Origin: Bacteroidota bacterium
GTDB lineage: Bacteria; Bacteroidota; Bacteroidia; JABDFU01
Direction of reading: 5' to 3'
Length of the DNA: 42,345 nt
Assembly: GCA_016183775.1 (NCBI GenBank)
Contig: JACPDY010000090.1
Location: 1 to 42,345, forward strand
This document shows positions 28,302 through 34,901 of this stretch, piece by piece; within the stretch, counting starts at the first letter, position 1, and the number at the start of each line of letters is the position of its first letter. The notes under the pieces were generated by a model, which saw nothing but the letters and a program-made list of their open reading frames with translations, was not told the DNA's origin and did not search any database. A program made the translations under genes and the position numbers.

Positions 28302-28327
28302 AAACCCCTGAGCGATCGGGGGTTTTT
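28302..28327. terminator. Bidirectional terminator between THX and pdxH
   Basis: AAACCCC pairs with GGGGTTT around a nine-base loop with T-tract on the plus strand and TTTCTTTT on the minus strand. It lies 3 bases after the THX stop and 3 bases before the pdxH stop, and can serve both convergent genes. Confidence 0.8.
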
Positions 28328-28330
28328 GAT

Positions 28331-28987
28331 TTAAGGTGCCAGGCGTTGTAAATTCCAGCTAATCTCATCATCCGATAATGTAAACTGCATCCTGTCGTGC
28401 AAACGATTCTGACGGCCTTGCCAGAACTCTATCATTGATGGCTTTAACAAATAACCGCCCCAGAATGGAGGGCAGGGAACTTTTTCTCCGGGATATTTAG
28501 CCGATAATTCAACAAATTTTCCTTCAAGCACTTCTCTGCTTTTTATAACCTGGCTCTGTTCAGAAACCCATGCTCCTATCTTACTTTCACGCGGTCGCGA
28601 ATTAAAATATTTTTCTGATATTTCTGCACTTACCTTTTCCAGCCGGCCTTCAACACGTACCTGGCGTTCTATCTGCGGCCAGAAGAATGTCAGCGCAGCA
28701 TATGGGTTTTTAGCAATATCTACGCCCTTTTTGCTGTTATAATTGGTATAGAAAACAAATCCTTTATCAGTAAAACCTCTCAATAACACAATACGGGAAG
28801 ATGGCTTTCCATCAGCACTGACAGTGGAAAGGGCCATGGCATGGGGTTCGCTTACGTTGGCCGCGATGGCTTCCTTCATCCATAATTCAAACTGCAGGAC
28901 AGGATCTTTTGCAATTTCACTTTCATTCAGCTCCATCCGCGAATAGTCAGAACGGAGTTTTCGTATTTGCTGATTCAATTCATCCAT
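28331..28987 (-). CDS. pdxH: Pyridoxamine 5'-phosphate oxidase
   Basis: The 218-residue FMN enzyme that oxidises PNP/PMP to pyridoxal phosphate. It has RIVLLRGF (FMN phosphate contact), YTNYNSKKG, FFWPQIERQVRVEG, SRPRESKIGAWVSEQS and the C-terminal FWQGRQNRLHDR substrate and FMN motif. Length is normal and the gene intact. It is the last gene of a tight minus-strand run with the FPD-repeat, SpoIIE and caspase genes; the link in function is not obvious. Confidence 0.95.
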   Translation of the reverse strand: MDELNQQIRKLRSDYSRMELNESEIAKDPVLQFELWMKEAIAANVSEPHAMALSTVSADGKPSSRIVLLRGFTDKGFVFYTNYNSKKGVDIAKNPYAALTFFWPQIERQVRVEGRLEKVSAEISEKYFNSRPRESKIGAWVSEQSQVIKSREVLEGKFVELSAKYPGEKVPCPPFWGGYLLKPSMIEFWQGRQNRLHDRMQFTLSDDEISWNLQRLAP

Positions 28988-28995
28988 GGCATCTG

Positions 28996-29382
28996 TTATT
29001 TAATTCCGGGAAATGCTTCCACAAATTTAACTTTTATATCCGGAAACGCGTCTACTATCTGAACCTTCAGGTCGGGAAAGGCCTCGACTACCTGCCATTT
29101 CCCACACTGGTCAGGAAAAGCTTCAACCATTTTTACTTTAATATCAGGGAACGCGTCAACTATCTGGATTTTTATATCGGGAAAGGCGGTTACATATTTG
29201 ATCTTACCATATAATTTCATTCCATTGAATTTGCAATCGTCGGTGACCTTATCCCCATCAATCTTTCCCAACGCAATAGTCTTATTCACAACAGCCGAAT
29301 CCTTTGGCAAGGAGCCGGCAAAACAGGTAATTGCAATATGGCCGAAGAGAATTGGAAGAAATATTCTATTAACTATCTTCAT
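28996..29382 (-). CDS. Secreted FPD-repeat protein, possible 7(1) septoil-knot family
   Basis: About 128 residues from the ATG at 29382 (MKIVNRIFLP), with a signal peptide ending CFAGS. After CKFNGMKLYGKIKYV comes a regular series of six units of the form V-x-A-F-P-(D/G), each followed by a short strand such as IKIQIV, and one unit carrying QCGKWQ. Two cysteines (in DDCKF and DQCGKW) could pair. This pattern recalls the 7(1) septoil knot family (formerly a DUF), in which seven such strands make a very complex protein knot; I recognise it from memory, so the assignment is tentative. It lies 8 bases before pdxH and 15 after the SpoIIE gene. Its role is not known. Confidence 0.65.
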   Translation of the reverse strand: MKIVNRIFLPILFGHIAITCFAGSLPKDSAVVNKTIALGKIDGDKVTDDCKFNGMKLYGKIKYVTAFPDIKIQIVDAFPDIKVKMVEAFPDQCGKWQVVEAFPDLKVQIVDAFPDIKVKFVEAFPGIK

Positions 29383-29397
29383 TAAAAGCAATGTGAG

Positions 29398-32300
29398 TTA
29401 AAGGCGTGTTCCTATCAACAATATATCATCGACCTGCTCAAATCCCTCTTTCCATTGATCAATCGCTTTGGTCATGTATTCGCCCTGTTCTTTCATATCC
29501 AGGTGTTGCGTATCAAGCAGCATTTTCTTAAACGCGCTGTATTTCAGTTTTTTCCCATTCGCCCCTCCGAACTGGTCAGCATAGCCATCAGAAAAGATAT
29601 ATATACTATCCCCTTTTTCCAGTTGTATACTGTGATTTGTAAATTTATGCTGATCACCCGACTTAAGGTTGCCAATTGGAAATTTATTCGCTTTTATTTC
29701 ATTTAAAACACCGTTACGTATCCGGTACAATGGATTAAACGCTCCTGAATACTGCAGCTCGTTTGTTTTACGATCGAACATACAAAGCGCAATGTCCATG
29801 CCATCTTTTACCTGCTCTTCCGCGTGTGATTGGCGCAAAGTTTCACTTACACTTTTATTCAACGCGTCCAGAACAAGCGCGGGTTGAGTGATCCCCTGTT
29901 CACCCACTATTTGCTCAAGATGGTTATGCCCGATAATCGACATGAATGCTCCTGGAACGCCGTGTCCCGTACAATCAACTGCTGCGAACAACACTTTATC
30001 TCCTTTGTCGTGCAGCCAGTAAAAATCTCCACTCACAATATCCTTAGGCTTAAACAGGATAAATGTTTTCGGCAAATATTTTTCCACAAATTCATCAGGC
30101 GGCAGTATGGCATCCTGTATACGTTTTGCATAGCGTATGCTGGCCATTATATCTTTATTCTTTTCATCCAACTGCTTGTTCTTTTCCACTACTTCCGCCG
30201 TTCTTTTACGAACTTTTTCCTCAAGCACACGTTTTTCCACCACTAATTTGCGTTCCCTCCATTTTACATATGTAAAGAATAATACCACTCCGACAACCAC
30301 ATAGGTAAGGTATGCCCACCAGGTGAAATACCAGGGAGGCCTTACGCGGAATGAAAATGTTACAGGTTCCTTGTTCCATACTCCCAGGTTATTGGAAGCT
30401 TTGACTTTGAAGGTATAATTACCGGGAGCAAGATTTGAATAAATGACCGATGTTTGATTTGTTGCAGGCCGCCAGTTCTCTTCTTCCCCTTCAAGCATTA
30501 CCATAAATTTTACCGCGTCGGGATTGGAAATACATATACCTGAATAGCTGAACATCAATGTGTTTTGATCATAGCCCAAAGAATAATTATTTTCAAGGGG
30601 AATAGAGCGTGAGTAATTGTATTTGATATCAGTGATATTGGTAAGCGCTTCAAGCGTATTCAGCTGATCGTATGTAGAGTTGTATTTTATTACCCCGTTC
30701 ACAGTACCAAACCAGATATTTCCTTTTTTATCGACATGAACAGCATTCGGCTTGGTCTCAATGGCCGTGAACCCTTCGAATTTACCATAGGAAATAAAAT
30801 TTTTTGAATTTTGAACAAAACGACTGAGGCCTTTGTTTGTTCCTATCCAGACATCTCCTTTATTGTCTGTAACAAGCAGGTTAATATAATCCGATACCAA
30901 ACCATCCTGTGTTGTATAGTGCCTGAATGCTGTGCCATTGTATACAAATACCCCGCCGCCCGATGTGCCGATCCATAAGTTACCCGCTTTGTCTTCTGTT
31001 AATGCTGTGGGTGAGGTATTTGTTAATCCTTCCTTTTTAGCATATAATTTAAAATCTTTTCCATTGTATTTATACAACCCTCTTCCGACAACACTGATCC
31101 ATATATTATTTTTTGAATCGCAATATAACGCGTTTATTTCTTTCGCGTCGAAATTCCTTGTGCCTACAAAGTCTCTTATACTGGTGGCCTCAGGATCAAA
31201 CACAACCAAAGCATTACCAGTAGCGATCCAGATATTATCCTTTGCGTCAACGCACAACGCGGCAATGAATGGATTACTTATAAAGTCATTAACAACAGAA
31301 ACAGCACCGAACTCATTTGTTTTGGAGTTGTACTTCAATAATTTATCCTGGTAGGTACCCAGCCAAACATCTCCTTTGCTGTCGCGGACTGCCGCACGAA
31401 ATGCCACCTTTCCGCTGCCTATGATCTTTTCGTGATTGTTAAACGTGCCTGCGACAGGATCTAATACAGATACACCGTTGCCTGTTGCAATAAAAATATT
31501 TCCATTCTCCACTTCCTGAACAGCCCATACCTTGTCATTGATCAATCCCTGGGAAACATTATACGTAATAAAGCGCTCACCTTTAAAGATGAATAACCCG
31601 CTGCCCTGCGTACCAACCAGTATATTGCCTTCACGGTCAATACTCAGCGCGTAAATTTTCAAGGCTGGCAAACCATTACCTGCGTGATAGTTCGTCAATT
31701 TCCCATCAGCGGATAGTTTAACCAGTCCGTCGCCCCATGTGGCCGCCCAGGTATTACCATTCTTATCAAAAACAATATCGCGTATCCATACAGGAACGGG
31801 AAATGACCTGGTTGATCTTTTCACCGGATCATACTTTACAAGTGCCGGTTGACCTAAAGTGGAACCATACCAAAGGTTACCTTGTTCATCTTCTTTGATA
31901 GCGGACACATAAGCTACCGACTGTCCGTTTATACGAAGGAATTCGAACTTGTCTGAGCCGGGTAATAAATATTTTACTCCTACATCAGTGAGGAAACAGA
32001 TGTTTCCGTTTTTCGACTCAAACATACTGAACACATAGCTGCTCAGGCCGTCGCCGGAACAATAGAATTTTAAATTCCCTTCAGCAGTAAGTTCGTCATT
32101 TGGTTTATTGATCAGTACAACACCAAACATGGCAACGGACACCCATATTTTGCCTGTCTTATCTTCATAAATAGAATAGATCTTTTTATCCCTGATACTG
32201 TCAGGTGATAGCTTTTCAAACTTGTTGTCGATATAACGGGTTATGGTACCGGAACTGTGCCCAAGCCAAAGCTCGTCGTTACTGGTCAAGAGCATGGCGC

Positions 32301-32547
32301 TGATATTGTTATCAGCTAAGCCATCGTCGGTTGTGTAATTGTAAAAAGTCTTTCCATCGAATCGTGAAAGTCCGCCTTCTGTTCCGAGCCATATATTCCC
32401 CTTTTTATCCTGTACAATACCAATGACATTGGATTGAATAAGACCTTCGGTTACGGAGTAATTGTCGAATGAATAAAGTTGTGAGAATAACTGACCTGAA
32501 AGGAAGCAAAGGAGAATTAAAAAGAAACCATCTTTTTTACGATACAT
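29398..32547 (-). CDS. Propeller-Y_Y_Y sensor with SpoIIE phosphatase output
   Basis: A 1049-residue membrane receptor: signal peptide (1-22); about fourteen two-component-regulator propeller repeats (reg_prop, such as GNIWLGTEGGLSRFDG) filling roughly 25-680 and likely forming two periplasmic propellers; a Y_Y_Y beta-sandwich (about 690-765); a TM helix (about 770-790); a coiled coil (about 795-835); and a cytoplasmic PP2C/SpoIIE domain. Metal-binding aspartates are intact: SGDFYW (D841), DCTGHG (D858), FSDG (D987) and VDDILLIG (D1040-D1041). There is no histidine kinase or DNA-binding domain, so the output is dephosphorylation of an unknown partner. It sits between the caspase gene (14 bases upstream) and the FPD-repeat gene. 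Confidence 0.87.
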   Translation of the reverse strand: MYRKKDGFFLILLCFLSGQLFSQLYSFDNYSVTEGLIQSNVIGIVQDKKGNIWLGTEGGLSRFDGKTFYNYTTDDGLADNNISAMLLTSNDELWLGHSSGTITRYIDNKFEKLSPDSIRDKKIYSIYEDKTGKIWVSVAMFGVVLINKPNDELTAEGNLKFYCSGDGLSSYVFSMFESKNGNICFLTDVGVKYLLPGSDKFEFLRINGQSVAYVSAIKEDEQGNLWYGSTLGQPALVKYDPVKRSTRSFPVPVWIRDIVFDKNGNTWAATWGDGLVKLSADGKLTNYHAGNGLPALKIYALSIDREGNILVGTQGSGLFIFKGERFITYNVSQGLINDKVWAVQEVENGNIFIATGNGVSVLDPVAGTFNNHEKIIGSGKVAFRAAVRDSKGDVWLGTYQDKLLKYNSKTNEFGAVSVVNDFISNPFIAALCVDAKDNIWIATGNALVVFDPEATSIRDFVGTRNFDAKEINALYCDSKNNIWISVVGRGLYKYNGKDFKLYAKKEGLTNTSPTALTEDKAGNLWIGTSGGGVFVYNGTAFRHYTTQDGLVSDYINLLVTDNKGDVWIGTNKGLSRFVQNSKNFISYGKFEGFTAIETKPNAVHVDKKGNIWFGTVNGVIKYNSTYDQLNTLEALTNITDIKYNYSRSIPLENNYSLGYDQNTLMFSYSGICISNPDAVKFMVMLEGEEENWRPATNQTSVIYSNLAPGNYTFKVKASNNLGVWNKEPVTFSFRVRPPWYFTWWAYLTYVVVGVVLFFTYVKWRERKLVVEKRVLEEKVRKRTAEVVEKNKQLDEKNKDIMASIRYAKRIQDAILPPDEFVEKYLPKTFILFKPKDIVSGDFYWLHDKGDKVLFAAVDCTGHGVPGAFMSIIGHNHLEQIVGEQGITQPALVLDALNKSVSETLRQSHAEEQVKDGMDIALCMFDRKTNELQYSGAFNPLYRIRNGVLNEIKANKFPIGNLKSGDQHKFTNHSIQLEKGDSIYIFSDGYADQFGGANGKKLKYSAFKKMLLDTQHLDMKEQGEYMTKAIDQWKEGFEQVDDILLIGTRL

Positions 32548-32561
32548 GAGTCATTTCTACA

Positions 32562-34901
32562 TTATTTTTTCATGAAAAAGAAGGTGCCGTCTTCATCCTC
32601 GAGATCCTTGATCTTACGAAGTTTCGGGGCCTGGTTAGCTGTTTTCTGAACAGCAGAGGCTACCTTTTCCGAAATCTTGTCAATTGAAATGCAGCCATCC
32701 GGATTGTTGTTCAATGAGGCAGCGAATGTTTTTGTGAACTGGGAGTTGTCGGCAGCCAATTCGAAACCGGCGGATGAAAGTACCTGGGAGGATTTCAGTT
32801 TTGTTGATTCCCAATCATCACAGCGTCTTTCCTTAGGTGTTGCACGCATGGCAAGCATAAATGAGGGACCGGATTCACATGCATCAGTTATTACGAGGAG
32901 GTGGGCCAATTTATCATATCCCTGGAGCGATCCTTTTAAATTATTTATGCTAAAGTAAGTGAACTCATCATCCACTTTGGCATCCACAGGTATCCAATAG
33001 CCTGTCTGGTTCACGAACTTACCATGACCGGCATACCAGATAACAACTGATGTTACATTATTCAGCCTTAACTGATCGCGCAATTCAATAGAGAAGAATT
33101 TTTCAAGACCATCTTTGGTAAGATCTTTTTTATGAATTATTTTATTCACCTTATAATTTACAAGTGCTGATTTCATCATGGTCACGTCCTTACCGGGTCC
33201 TTCGAGTATCGGAAAGTTCTTGTAATTGGTATTTTCAACAAATACGACCCAGGTAATACCCATAGGATTATCCCTGGCCACAAGCGCCCCTTCCCTGTTG
33301 AGTTTGTATTTTACATTTGTTTCATTTCCATTGATATCTCTCACCCTGATATTTATATCGTTTTTATTGGCAATGCTCGCTTTGATGGAAAAGGTCGGAT
33401 TTAAAGCTTCAAGCGCATAACTGGCCGAAACACCTTCAACGATAATTGATTCGATCAGGCTCTCGTCCTTTACTTTGCCTTCAATATAAAGTTCGGGGTT
33501 GGTATTATCCATGAATATTTCATTGTCAGACGAAGCCATCGGCGATATTAATTCAACCAAAGGCTTATTGATCTCCGTGCGATCGATAGTGTAGATAATT
33601 TTTTTAGTATTATCGTATATATCGCTTGCCGTTATCGAAAATTCATTTCCGGTGCCTATCTGAATTCCTCCACTGAAATCGGGATTAAGAGTGTCCTTAC
33701 TAAAATTAGCAGGAACATTATTGATGTTTATAGCCTTGATCTTACTTGCATCCTTAACAGTCCCCCTTACTACGATCTCCGTTTTATCGCCGGGAAGTTT
33801 AACTACATTCTTTTCATTTGCTTTAGGTGTAAGAAGTTCTATTTCGGGTTTATAACTTTCACGGTTCAACTCGAACAGTTTTTCTATAGCGGCCTTCATC
33901 ATCTCTCTGGCTTTCTCATTATTCGGAGCAAGTGTCATTATCTTTTCATAATCGACCGCTGCCGATTTAAAATTGGTAAGCTGTTCATAGTTCCAGGCGC
34001 GTTTGTAATAAGCCTGCAAAAGATCCTTCCCGTTCATCCCGATCACTTTTGAGAAGTCGTATATCGCGTTCTGGTATTGACCTAATTTTTCGTAATACTC
34101 TCCCCTCTTCATGAATAACATTTCATTGTTCTGATCGCTGACAATTACCTTTGAAATATCATTCACAGCTGTTCCGAAATCATTTTTGCTGGCAAAGATG
34201 CAGCTGCGGGCATAAAAAATATCTTTATTGGTCGGATCTTTCGATATCGCTACATCAGCAATGCTTAATGCTTCGTCATACTTTTTCAGTTTATCCTGTA
34301 CAAGAATAAGTCCGACATAAGCTGGGATAAACTTTGAGTCATAGTATTTGGAATTTTTATAGTCCTTCTCCGCTTCAATATAATTTTTCAGACTGTCCAA
34401 CATAACCGCGTGATAGTAATAGGCCGGTGCTGTTCTTTTATTATCAATCCAGAGTTGTGAAGCCTCCAGTCCATCCTTGAAATTTTTGAGCTTCAAAAGA
34501 ACCTTGAGAAAAACCTCTATGGCTTCACTATATTCTTTATCCTTAACAATGGCATCCCTGAGCATTGCGTCGGCTTCCGTATACTTACCGAGATCATAAT
34601 AAAGACGTCCTGCATTGTAATAATTTTCTTTATCCTTGGGTGCAAAAACAGTTGCGCGCCTGTAGTCATCGGCCGCATCAGCACTTTTTCCTGTTTTTTC
34701 ATAGCAATATGCGCGGGCCTGATAAGCCTTAACATACTTGGGATCAAGTTCTATTGCTTTCGTATAACTGGCAATTGCATCCTGGTAGGACAGACTTTCA
34801 AGAAATTTCCCTCCGGTGCTGTAAAATTTTTTTGCACTCTGCCCTTTTACAAATAAAGTGCATATCAGAAGGGAAAATAACAGGAGTGTTTTCTTAAACA
34901 T
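32562..34901 (-). CDS. Secreted TPR protein with C-terminal caspase (C14) domain
   Basis: A 779-residue protein: signal peptide (1-20, ending KGQ), nine or so TPRs (about 25-345), two beta-sandwich/Ig-like segments (about 350-540, each ending in a D-x-x-G/N-x-x-K strand), and a caspase-like peptidase domain (551-779). The catalytic dyad is complete: H626 in WYAGHG and C675 in TDACESG. Orthocaspases of this type cut after basic residues or Asp depending on the S1 pocket, which I did not assign. Being exported, it may act in the periplasm or on the surface. It is the first gene of a four-gene run with the SpoIIE receptor. Confidence 0.87.
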   Translation of the reverse strand: MFKKTLLLFSLLICTLFVKGQSAKKFYSTGGKFLESLSYQDAIASYTKAIELDPKYVKAYQARAYCYEKTGKSADAADDYRRATVFAPKDKENYYNAGRLYYDLGKYTEADAMLRDAIVKDKEYSEAIEVFLKVLLKLKNFKDGLEASQLWIDNKRTAPAYYYHAVMLDSLKNYIEAEKDYKNSKYYDSKFIPAYVGLILVQDKLKKYDEALSIADVAISKDPTNKDIFYARSCIFASKNDFGTAVNDISKVIVSDQNNEMLFMKRGEYYEKLGQYQNAIYDFSKVIGMNGKDLLQAYYKRAWNYEQLTNFKSAAVDYEKIMTLAPNNEKAREMMKAAIEKLFELNRESYKPEIELLTPKANEKNVVKLPGDKTEIVVRGTVKDASKIKAININNVPANFSKDTLNPDFSGGIQIGTGNEFSITASDIYDNTKKIIYTIDRTEINKPLVELISPMASSDNEIFMDNTNPELYIEGKVKDESLIESIIVEGVSASYALEALNPTFSIKASIANKNDINIRVRDINGNETNVKYKLNREGALVARDNPMGITWVVFVENTNYKNFPILEGPGKDVTMMKSALVNYKVNKIIHKKDLTKDGLEKFFSIELRDQLRLNNVTSVVIWYAGHGKFVNQTGYWIPVDAKVDDEFTYFSINNLKGSLQGYDKLAHLLVITDACESGPSFMLAMRATPKERRCDDWESTKLKSSQVLSSAGFELAADNSQFTKTFAASLNNNPDGCISIDKISEKVASAVQKTANQAPKLRKIKDLEDEDGTFFFMKK

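Follow-up and report, generated by a model that had tools for sequence, protein, structure and literature searches.

Conserved pairing of an exported caspase homologue with a propeller-SpoIIE receptor in Bacteroidota suggests a two-protein transmembrane signalling module

The 42,345-nucleotide stretch analyzed here (the window) is the whole of contig JACPDY010000090.1 (C90) from a Bacteroidota bacterium (GCA_016183775.1; G000), a 4.5 Mb draft genome in 164 contigs. On its minus strand, it carries two adjacent genes encoding a putatively exported TPR-Ig-Ig-caspase protein (CASP) and a receptor with propellers, a Y_Y_Y domain, a transmembrane helix and a SpoIIE/PP2C phosphatase (SPOE). The two genes are neighbours in most of the related loci examined, and we consider that there is about an even chance that their products form a two-protein transmembrane signalling module, in which the caspase would act on the propeller and the output would go to SiaB/SiaC. 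An earlier note, made from the sequence of the window alone, had suggested a four-gene signalling or proteolysis module of the envelope; the caspase beside a PP2C receptor is the part of that suggestion that is conserved, and the unit consists of two genes, not four.

Conservation of the pair was studied in two samples, which share about 10 genomes. The first is an even sampling of the class, 395 genomes in all, searched for CASP regardless of neighbours. Full-length CASP relatives occur in many of its families, and in 31 of the 51 loci with room for it, the next gene downstream is a receptor gene in the same orientation. Paired loci were found in nine families: f1, f18, f20, f27, f29, f33, f41 and f44, whose receptors have a PP2C output, and f8, whose receptors have a cyclase. 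The second sample derives from a named collection in which 259 stretches encode CASP relatives; the best 80 were taken, and the receptor is next to CASP on the same strand in 73 of the 76 with downstream room. Both samples bear out the caspase-SpoIIE neighbourhood that the earlier note proposed to look for in relatives, with the nine families defined in GTDB style. Clustering of the neighbouring genes of 76 paired loci showed that only CASP and receptor are common to every locus; the next commonest family reaches 37. The flanking genes vary by group and show RibD-type, YbaB/TauE-type, Tex-type or TMTC/PdxH contexts, named by eye.

Phylogenetic analysis shows the CASP-linked receptors as one clade, whatever their output, apart from 24 paralogous propeller-SpoIIE receptors (SH-aLRT 97-98). 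Distances between CASP sequences and between receptor sequences correlate with r=0.84 across 47 loci (0/1000 permutations). In genome G171 the two genes are 92 kb apart and each is sister to its counterpart in the pair of G318 (L055), therefore both genes were retained after separation. In three genera of f3, too, both genes persist without linkage, and the caspase is intact. The adjacency could be inherited gene order without functional meaning, given that both genes are vertically inherited and their trees agree; however, the flanks differ between groups while the pair stays, and a second caspase type is independently paired with another receptor clade (see below), which makes this explanation highly improbable.

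CASP (32562..34901, minus strand) has 779 amino acid residues and an AlphaFold2 (AF2) model with a mean predicted local distance difference test (pLDDT) score of 80.7; Pfam recognizes TPR and C14 domains in it. Its export is deduced from a signal peptide, MFKKTLLLFSLLICTLFVKGQS, read by eye. A superhelix of about 10 TPRs covers residues 23-345 (33867..34835), where AF2 predicts paired helices with pLDDT mostly >90, and TPR solved structures are the best sequence and fold matches of this region. It is followed by two beta-sandwich, Ig-like domains (residues 352-442 and 447-535; 33297..33848), modeled as strands with pLDDT of about 72-90, for which no Pfam family was over the cut-off. The C-terminal caspase domain (residues 547-779; 32565..33263) matches Pfam Peptidase_C14 with an E-value of 1.5e-13 and 51.4 bits, against a cut-off of 21.4. 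The catalytic dyad, described as complete in the earlier note, is present as H626 in a GHG motif (codon 33024-33026) and C675 in DACESG (codon 32877-32879), and both residues, as well as R686, are invariant in the 52 aligned orthologues. By domain and dyad CASP is probably an active C14 caspase homologue, with predicted proteolysis after Arg or Lys. In a fold search against solved structures, TPR matches dominated and the caspase domain was without match.

SPOE (29398..32547, minus strand) has 1049 residues, domains recognized by Pfam and an AF2 mean pLDDT of 85.4. Its periplasmic part is a Reg_prop double propeller (residues 24-637; 30637..32478; Pfam E=3.5e-51), also found by phmmer against 4a2l and 3v9f and in the AF2 model, followed by a Y_Y_Y domain (PF07495, E=7.6e-14; residues 674-735; 30343..30528). 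A hydrophobic stretch followed by KWRERK marks, by eye, a transmembrane helix at about residues 743-766 (30250..30321), which in the AF2 model forms part of a helix spanning 743-781 and runs on into a coiled linker. Reg_prop repeats, Y_Y_Y and a single transmembrane segment fit a propeller-type one-component sensor. The PP2C output attributed to the receptor at the outset is confirmed by a SpoIIE domain (PF07228, E=7.1e-20; residues 849-1046; 29410..30003) and by its metal-binding residues D841, D858, D918, D987 and D1041, invariant or nearly so in 44 orthologues. Residues 774-1048 match the PP2C domain of SiaA (6k4e, E=1.1e-39). In the comparison with solved structures, at E<=0.01, SiaA was the only phosphatase chain hit, and NCBIfam likewise returned no other phosphatase family. 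The NCBIfam SiaA equivalog scores 213 bits against a cut-off of 700 and covers the C-terminal part only, so SPOE is SiaA-like, not SiaA.

SpoIIE-family phosphatases classically target STAS proteins, and the same module might act through STAS/RsbW-type partner switching, on an anti-sigma or other target, instead of SiaC. The search for an anti-sigma or STAS partner elsewhere, suggested in the earlier note, does recover three single-domain STAS proteins and one RsbW-like ATPase, with STAS considered in the window's own genome only; nevertheless, such a target seems unlikely to us, since SiaA is the nearest match of the phosphatase domain and the presence of SiaC goes with that of the receptor. 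By hand tally, SiaC (PF09345) is encoded in 28 of 28 sampled genomes with a PP2C-type SPOE and in 0 of 9 genomes of f62 and of genus g84 of f3, which have CASP without a PP2C-type SPOE. Genome G007 has one SiaC and two SpoIIE proteins, one of them of the ~410-aa type that is retained in g84 although SiaC is missing there, which by elimination leaves SiaC as the match. SiaB and SiaC are encoded outside the putative CASP-SPOE operon, elsewhere in the same genome, and in several paired genomes they stand alone with no SpoIIE neighbour. In Pseudomonas aeruginosa, SiaC is phosphorylated at T68 within NTSSIK (PMC7647112), which the NTSSSK of Bacteroidota SiaC resembles. The most likely target of the SPOE phosphatase is SiaC, as judged from these comparisons. 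SiaB-SiaC operons also follow other propeller-SpoIIE genes, in contig C37 of the window's genome (L202) and in L230, L234 and L236, an arrangement that supports SiaC as a probable common PP2C target in the phylum. The window's genome has many phosphatase receptors versus few classical partners.

The output domain is exchanged in one family. All 11 receptors of f8 lack PP2C and end in a class III nucleotide cyclase (Pfam Guanylate_cyc), with motifs FTD, GDSY, EKIK, YD-WGD and NTASR, which we take to be those expected of an adenylyl cyclase. This Pfam result overturned an initial reading in which f8 combined a dead caspase and a SpoIIE output. In the even sample, the caspase dyad is intact in 20 of 20 PP2C-adjacent copies, and the Cys is lost in 11 of 11 cyclase-adjacent ones; the named-collection set is unusable for counting dyad loss at the His because its search patterns include the GHG motif. 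The 11 f8 proteins have Ala in place of Cys and end at ...LTR, aligned with R686. These Bacteroidota pseudo-caspases (L079-L086 and L090-L092) all end at the otherwise invariant Arg. Pseudo-orthocaspases have been linked mainly to phototrophs (PMC6426788), a link to which the Bacteroidota forms are an exception. Genus g84 of f3 has lost the dyad in 5 of 5 caspase copies, and both receptor and SiaC are absent. In f27, extra unlinked CASP copies are dead (DATETG) and the paired copy is intact. The dyad is also intact in L067 and L071, both truncated sequences. In f62, the receptor of G276 likewise ends in a cyclase, and the next gene encodes an MFS-HEAT-cNMP-binding protein; a protein of this kind comes after CASP in two further genomes of the family, and these positions suggest a cAMP effector. 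The f62 loci with such a protein are L192 (4282-8999), L060 (3921-9672) and L071 (1-5207). Whether the cyclase output arose once was examined with the approximately unbiased (AU) test (support 52), and L192 is placed differently by the two trees.

The pattern of exchange and decay bears on two further explanations. CASP could be a stress, death or envelope-processing protease that is only co-expressed with a sensor of the same regulon, without contact between the two: adjacency by itself indicates co-regulation only, and caspase homologues have often been proposed as death or stress proteases (PMC3501461). However, the f8 pairing persists though its caspase, without the Cys and the C-terminal part, is no protease; the output domain was swapped while the partner was retained; and in g84, where the receptor is gone, the caspase decays. 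We regard mere co-expression as unlikely. Alternatively, cleavage by CASP could be the activating step, as with site-1 proteases, and the cut could fall in the ectodomain of SPOE or, following an Arg such as R686, at the p20/p10 junction of CASP itself. Orthocaspases cut after basic residues (PMC6426788), R686 is invariant in the 52 orthologues, the f8 proteins stop at the aligned Arg as if p20 suffices, and the dyad is intact in every PP2C-adjacent copy of the even sample; on the other hand, f8 pairs, if functional, need no catalysis, a conserved cleavage site in SPOE was not established, and R686 may be structural. Activation by cleavage is possible and, in our judgement, somewhat doubtful.

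A second type of caspase shows the same arrangement. Secreted WD40-caspases of about 850 aa, with YYSGHG and DACFS motifs, directly precede propeller-SpoIIE genes in five loci: L237 (1375-7252), which is from a species congeneric with the source of the window, L238 (1235-7055), L239 (1550-7623), L240 (1867-5349) and L242 (3039-8897). Their receptors form a separate clade within the paralogues, therefore the association of caspase and receptor arose, or was kept, twice. More tentatively, and at less than even confidence, secreted caspase-fold proteins of at least two types, TPR-Ig and WD40, may be dedicated input subunits of propeller receptors in Bacteroidota, where PP2C would mostly be activated or licensed by proteolysis and a non-catalytic, p20-only ligand would remain after the cyclase swap. 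Other secreted caspases were observed in the compared loci. In some Bacteroidales, a small one of 258-270 aa with an intact dyad is encoded just upstream of CASP (L118, 1620-2432; L128, 7926-8726; L134, 283-1059; L150, 1432-2208); the CASP-SPOE pair follows it in three of these, and L150 ends after CASP. L093, L094 and L095, of f23, encode stand-alone secreted caspase domains near that of CASP, without TPRs or receptor.

In the proposed module, exported CASP would sense or process something periplasmic through its TPR and Ig-like domains, with caspase activity in addition in most lineages, and would bind or act on the propeller/Y_Y_Y ectodomain of SPOE, setting the state of the receptor. The link between CASP and receptor is most simply periplasmic because the output domain changes while CASP stays. 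The receptor state would pass through the transmembrane helix and the coiled linker to the cytoplasmic PP2C, which would remove phosphate from a SiaC-type protein that SiaB keeps in the phosphorylated form. In most lineages catalysis would add a processing step, with R686 or the receptor as conceivable sites, and the CASP of f8 may be a fixed p20-only form. Physical contact, the direction of signalling, proteolysis as the trigger and SiaC as the substrate are what we infer from the comparisons described above. Several observations weigh against this module. The tree agreement (r=0.84) is also expected under shared descent alone, and AF2 confidence is low across the caspase domain of CASP, with pLDDT of about 44-74. 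In f62, the dyad is intact without a PP2C receptor, and proteolysis may be secondary because the f8 pairing persists without catalysis. Furthermore, the co-occurrence of SiaC rests on about two independent losses, SiaC tracks SpoIIE proteins in general, and the window's genome has seven SiaC and 23 SpoIIE matches in addition to its STAS and RsbW-like proteins.

The control of a transmembrane signal protein by a periplasmic protease is known from the DegS-RseA type of system. CASP-SPOE shares this idea, but protease and target are unrelated and SPOE carries its own enzyme output. A known counterpart of the output is the threonine-phosphorylation switch SiaA-SiaB-SiaC(-SiaD) of P. aeruginosa (PMC7647112): SPOE is likewise a membrane protein with a SiaA-homologous cytoplasmic PP2C and SiaB/SiaC in the same genomes, but its sensor is a propeller/Y_Y_Y ectodomain, a caspase gene lies upstream and SiaB/SiaC are outside the operon. 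With the propeller hybrid sensors of gut Bacteroides (4a2l, 3v9f) it shares Reg_prop propellers, Y_Y_Y and a transmembrane helix, whereas PP2C or a class III cyclase takes the place of the histidine kinase as output, and it has a caspase partner. CASP has the His/Cys dyad, TPR or WD40 partners and pseudo-variants of bacterial orthocaspases and metacaspases of family C14 (PMC3501461, PMC6426788); unlike these, it is exported, its pairing with a receptor is deeply conserved and its inactive forms are tied to an output swap. The Csx29 TPR-CHAT protease, with Csx30 and CASP-sigma (PMC10028731), also combines TPRs, a caspase-like protease and a regulatory output, but it is cytoplasmic and RNA-activated, cleaves a sigma inhibitor and has no receptor or phosphatase. 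The texts of PMC3501461 and PMC4933709 contain no mention of SpoIIE or propellers. The component families are known. None of the open-access papers searched (preprints were outside the scope) describes the caspase-receptor pair, which the author of the earlier note likewise did not know as a described system, and neither the exchange of output with decay of the caspase nor the WD40-caspase pairing was found in them; all three appear new relative to these papers.

With the widespread pairing, an exported caspase homologue has a specific candidate partner and an output that can be measured, either as PP2C activity or as cAMP. Natural mutants exist, in lineages with a dead but retained caspase and in lineages with an exchanged output. 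The module would also provide an input route into SiaB/SiaC-type switches, and such pathways of Bacteroidota appear uncharacterised in the papers searched. If true, CASP-SPOE would represent a class of bacterial caspase-receptor signalling with exchangeable outputs.

In the window, the pair is followed by two further minus-strand genes, and the open reading frame positions confirm the gaps of 14, 15 and 8 bases reported between the four. The four occur together in the nearest relative only, and the four-gene unit was rejected in favour of CASP and SPOE, the other two genes being local. Among named records, the nearest is a metagenome-assembled genome of the Bacteroidia, whose CASP is 96% identical; the GTDB-style order of the window is represented by six available genomes, of one genus throughout. 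PdxH, a pyridoxamine 5'-phosphate oxidase of 218 aa (28331..28987; TIGR00558 over its curated cut-off, Pfam PNPOx), is next to the pair within the genus only, among the related loci compared, and it looks like a passenger, a possibility raised in the earlier note. A hairpin followed by T-rich sequence directly after pdxH (28302..28325, minus strand; fold -14.1 kcal/mol, z -1.24) is a probable terminator, which makes an operon boundary plausible there. This hairpin was not among the listings of a pattern scan for terminators, and the promoter and terminator scans gave counts near the shuffled expectation. The sole match to PADLOC models was a weak TPR match to PrimPol, and an anti-phage defence system was rejected for want of PADLOC support. 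The small secreted FPD-repeat protein, encoded at 28996..29382 (128 aa, ATG start) or to 29391 (131 aa, TTG start), also on the minus strand, is restricted to the nearest relative (L041/L100) among the loci compared and, like PdxH, looks like a passenger. Its repeat (28996-29382) is similar to replicon-borne proteins of Leptospira weilii and Burkholderia stagnalis, matches the solved protein UU089.1 (8iwa, E=1e-10) and belongs to a widespread family of small repeats with no Pfam model.

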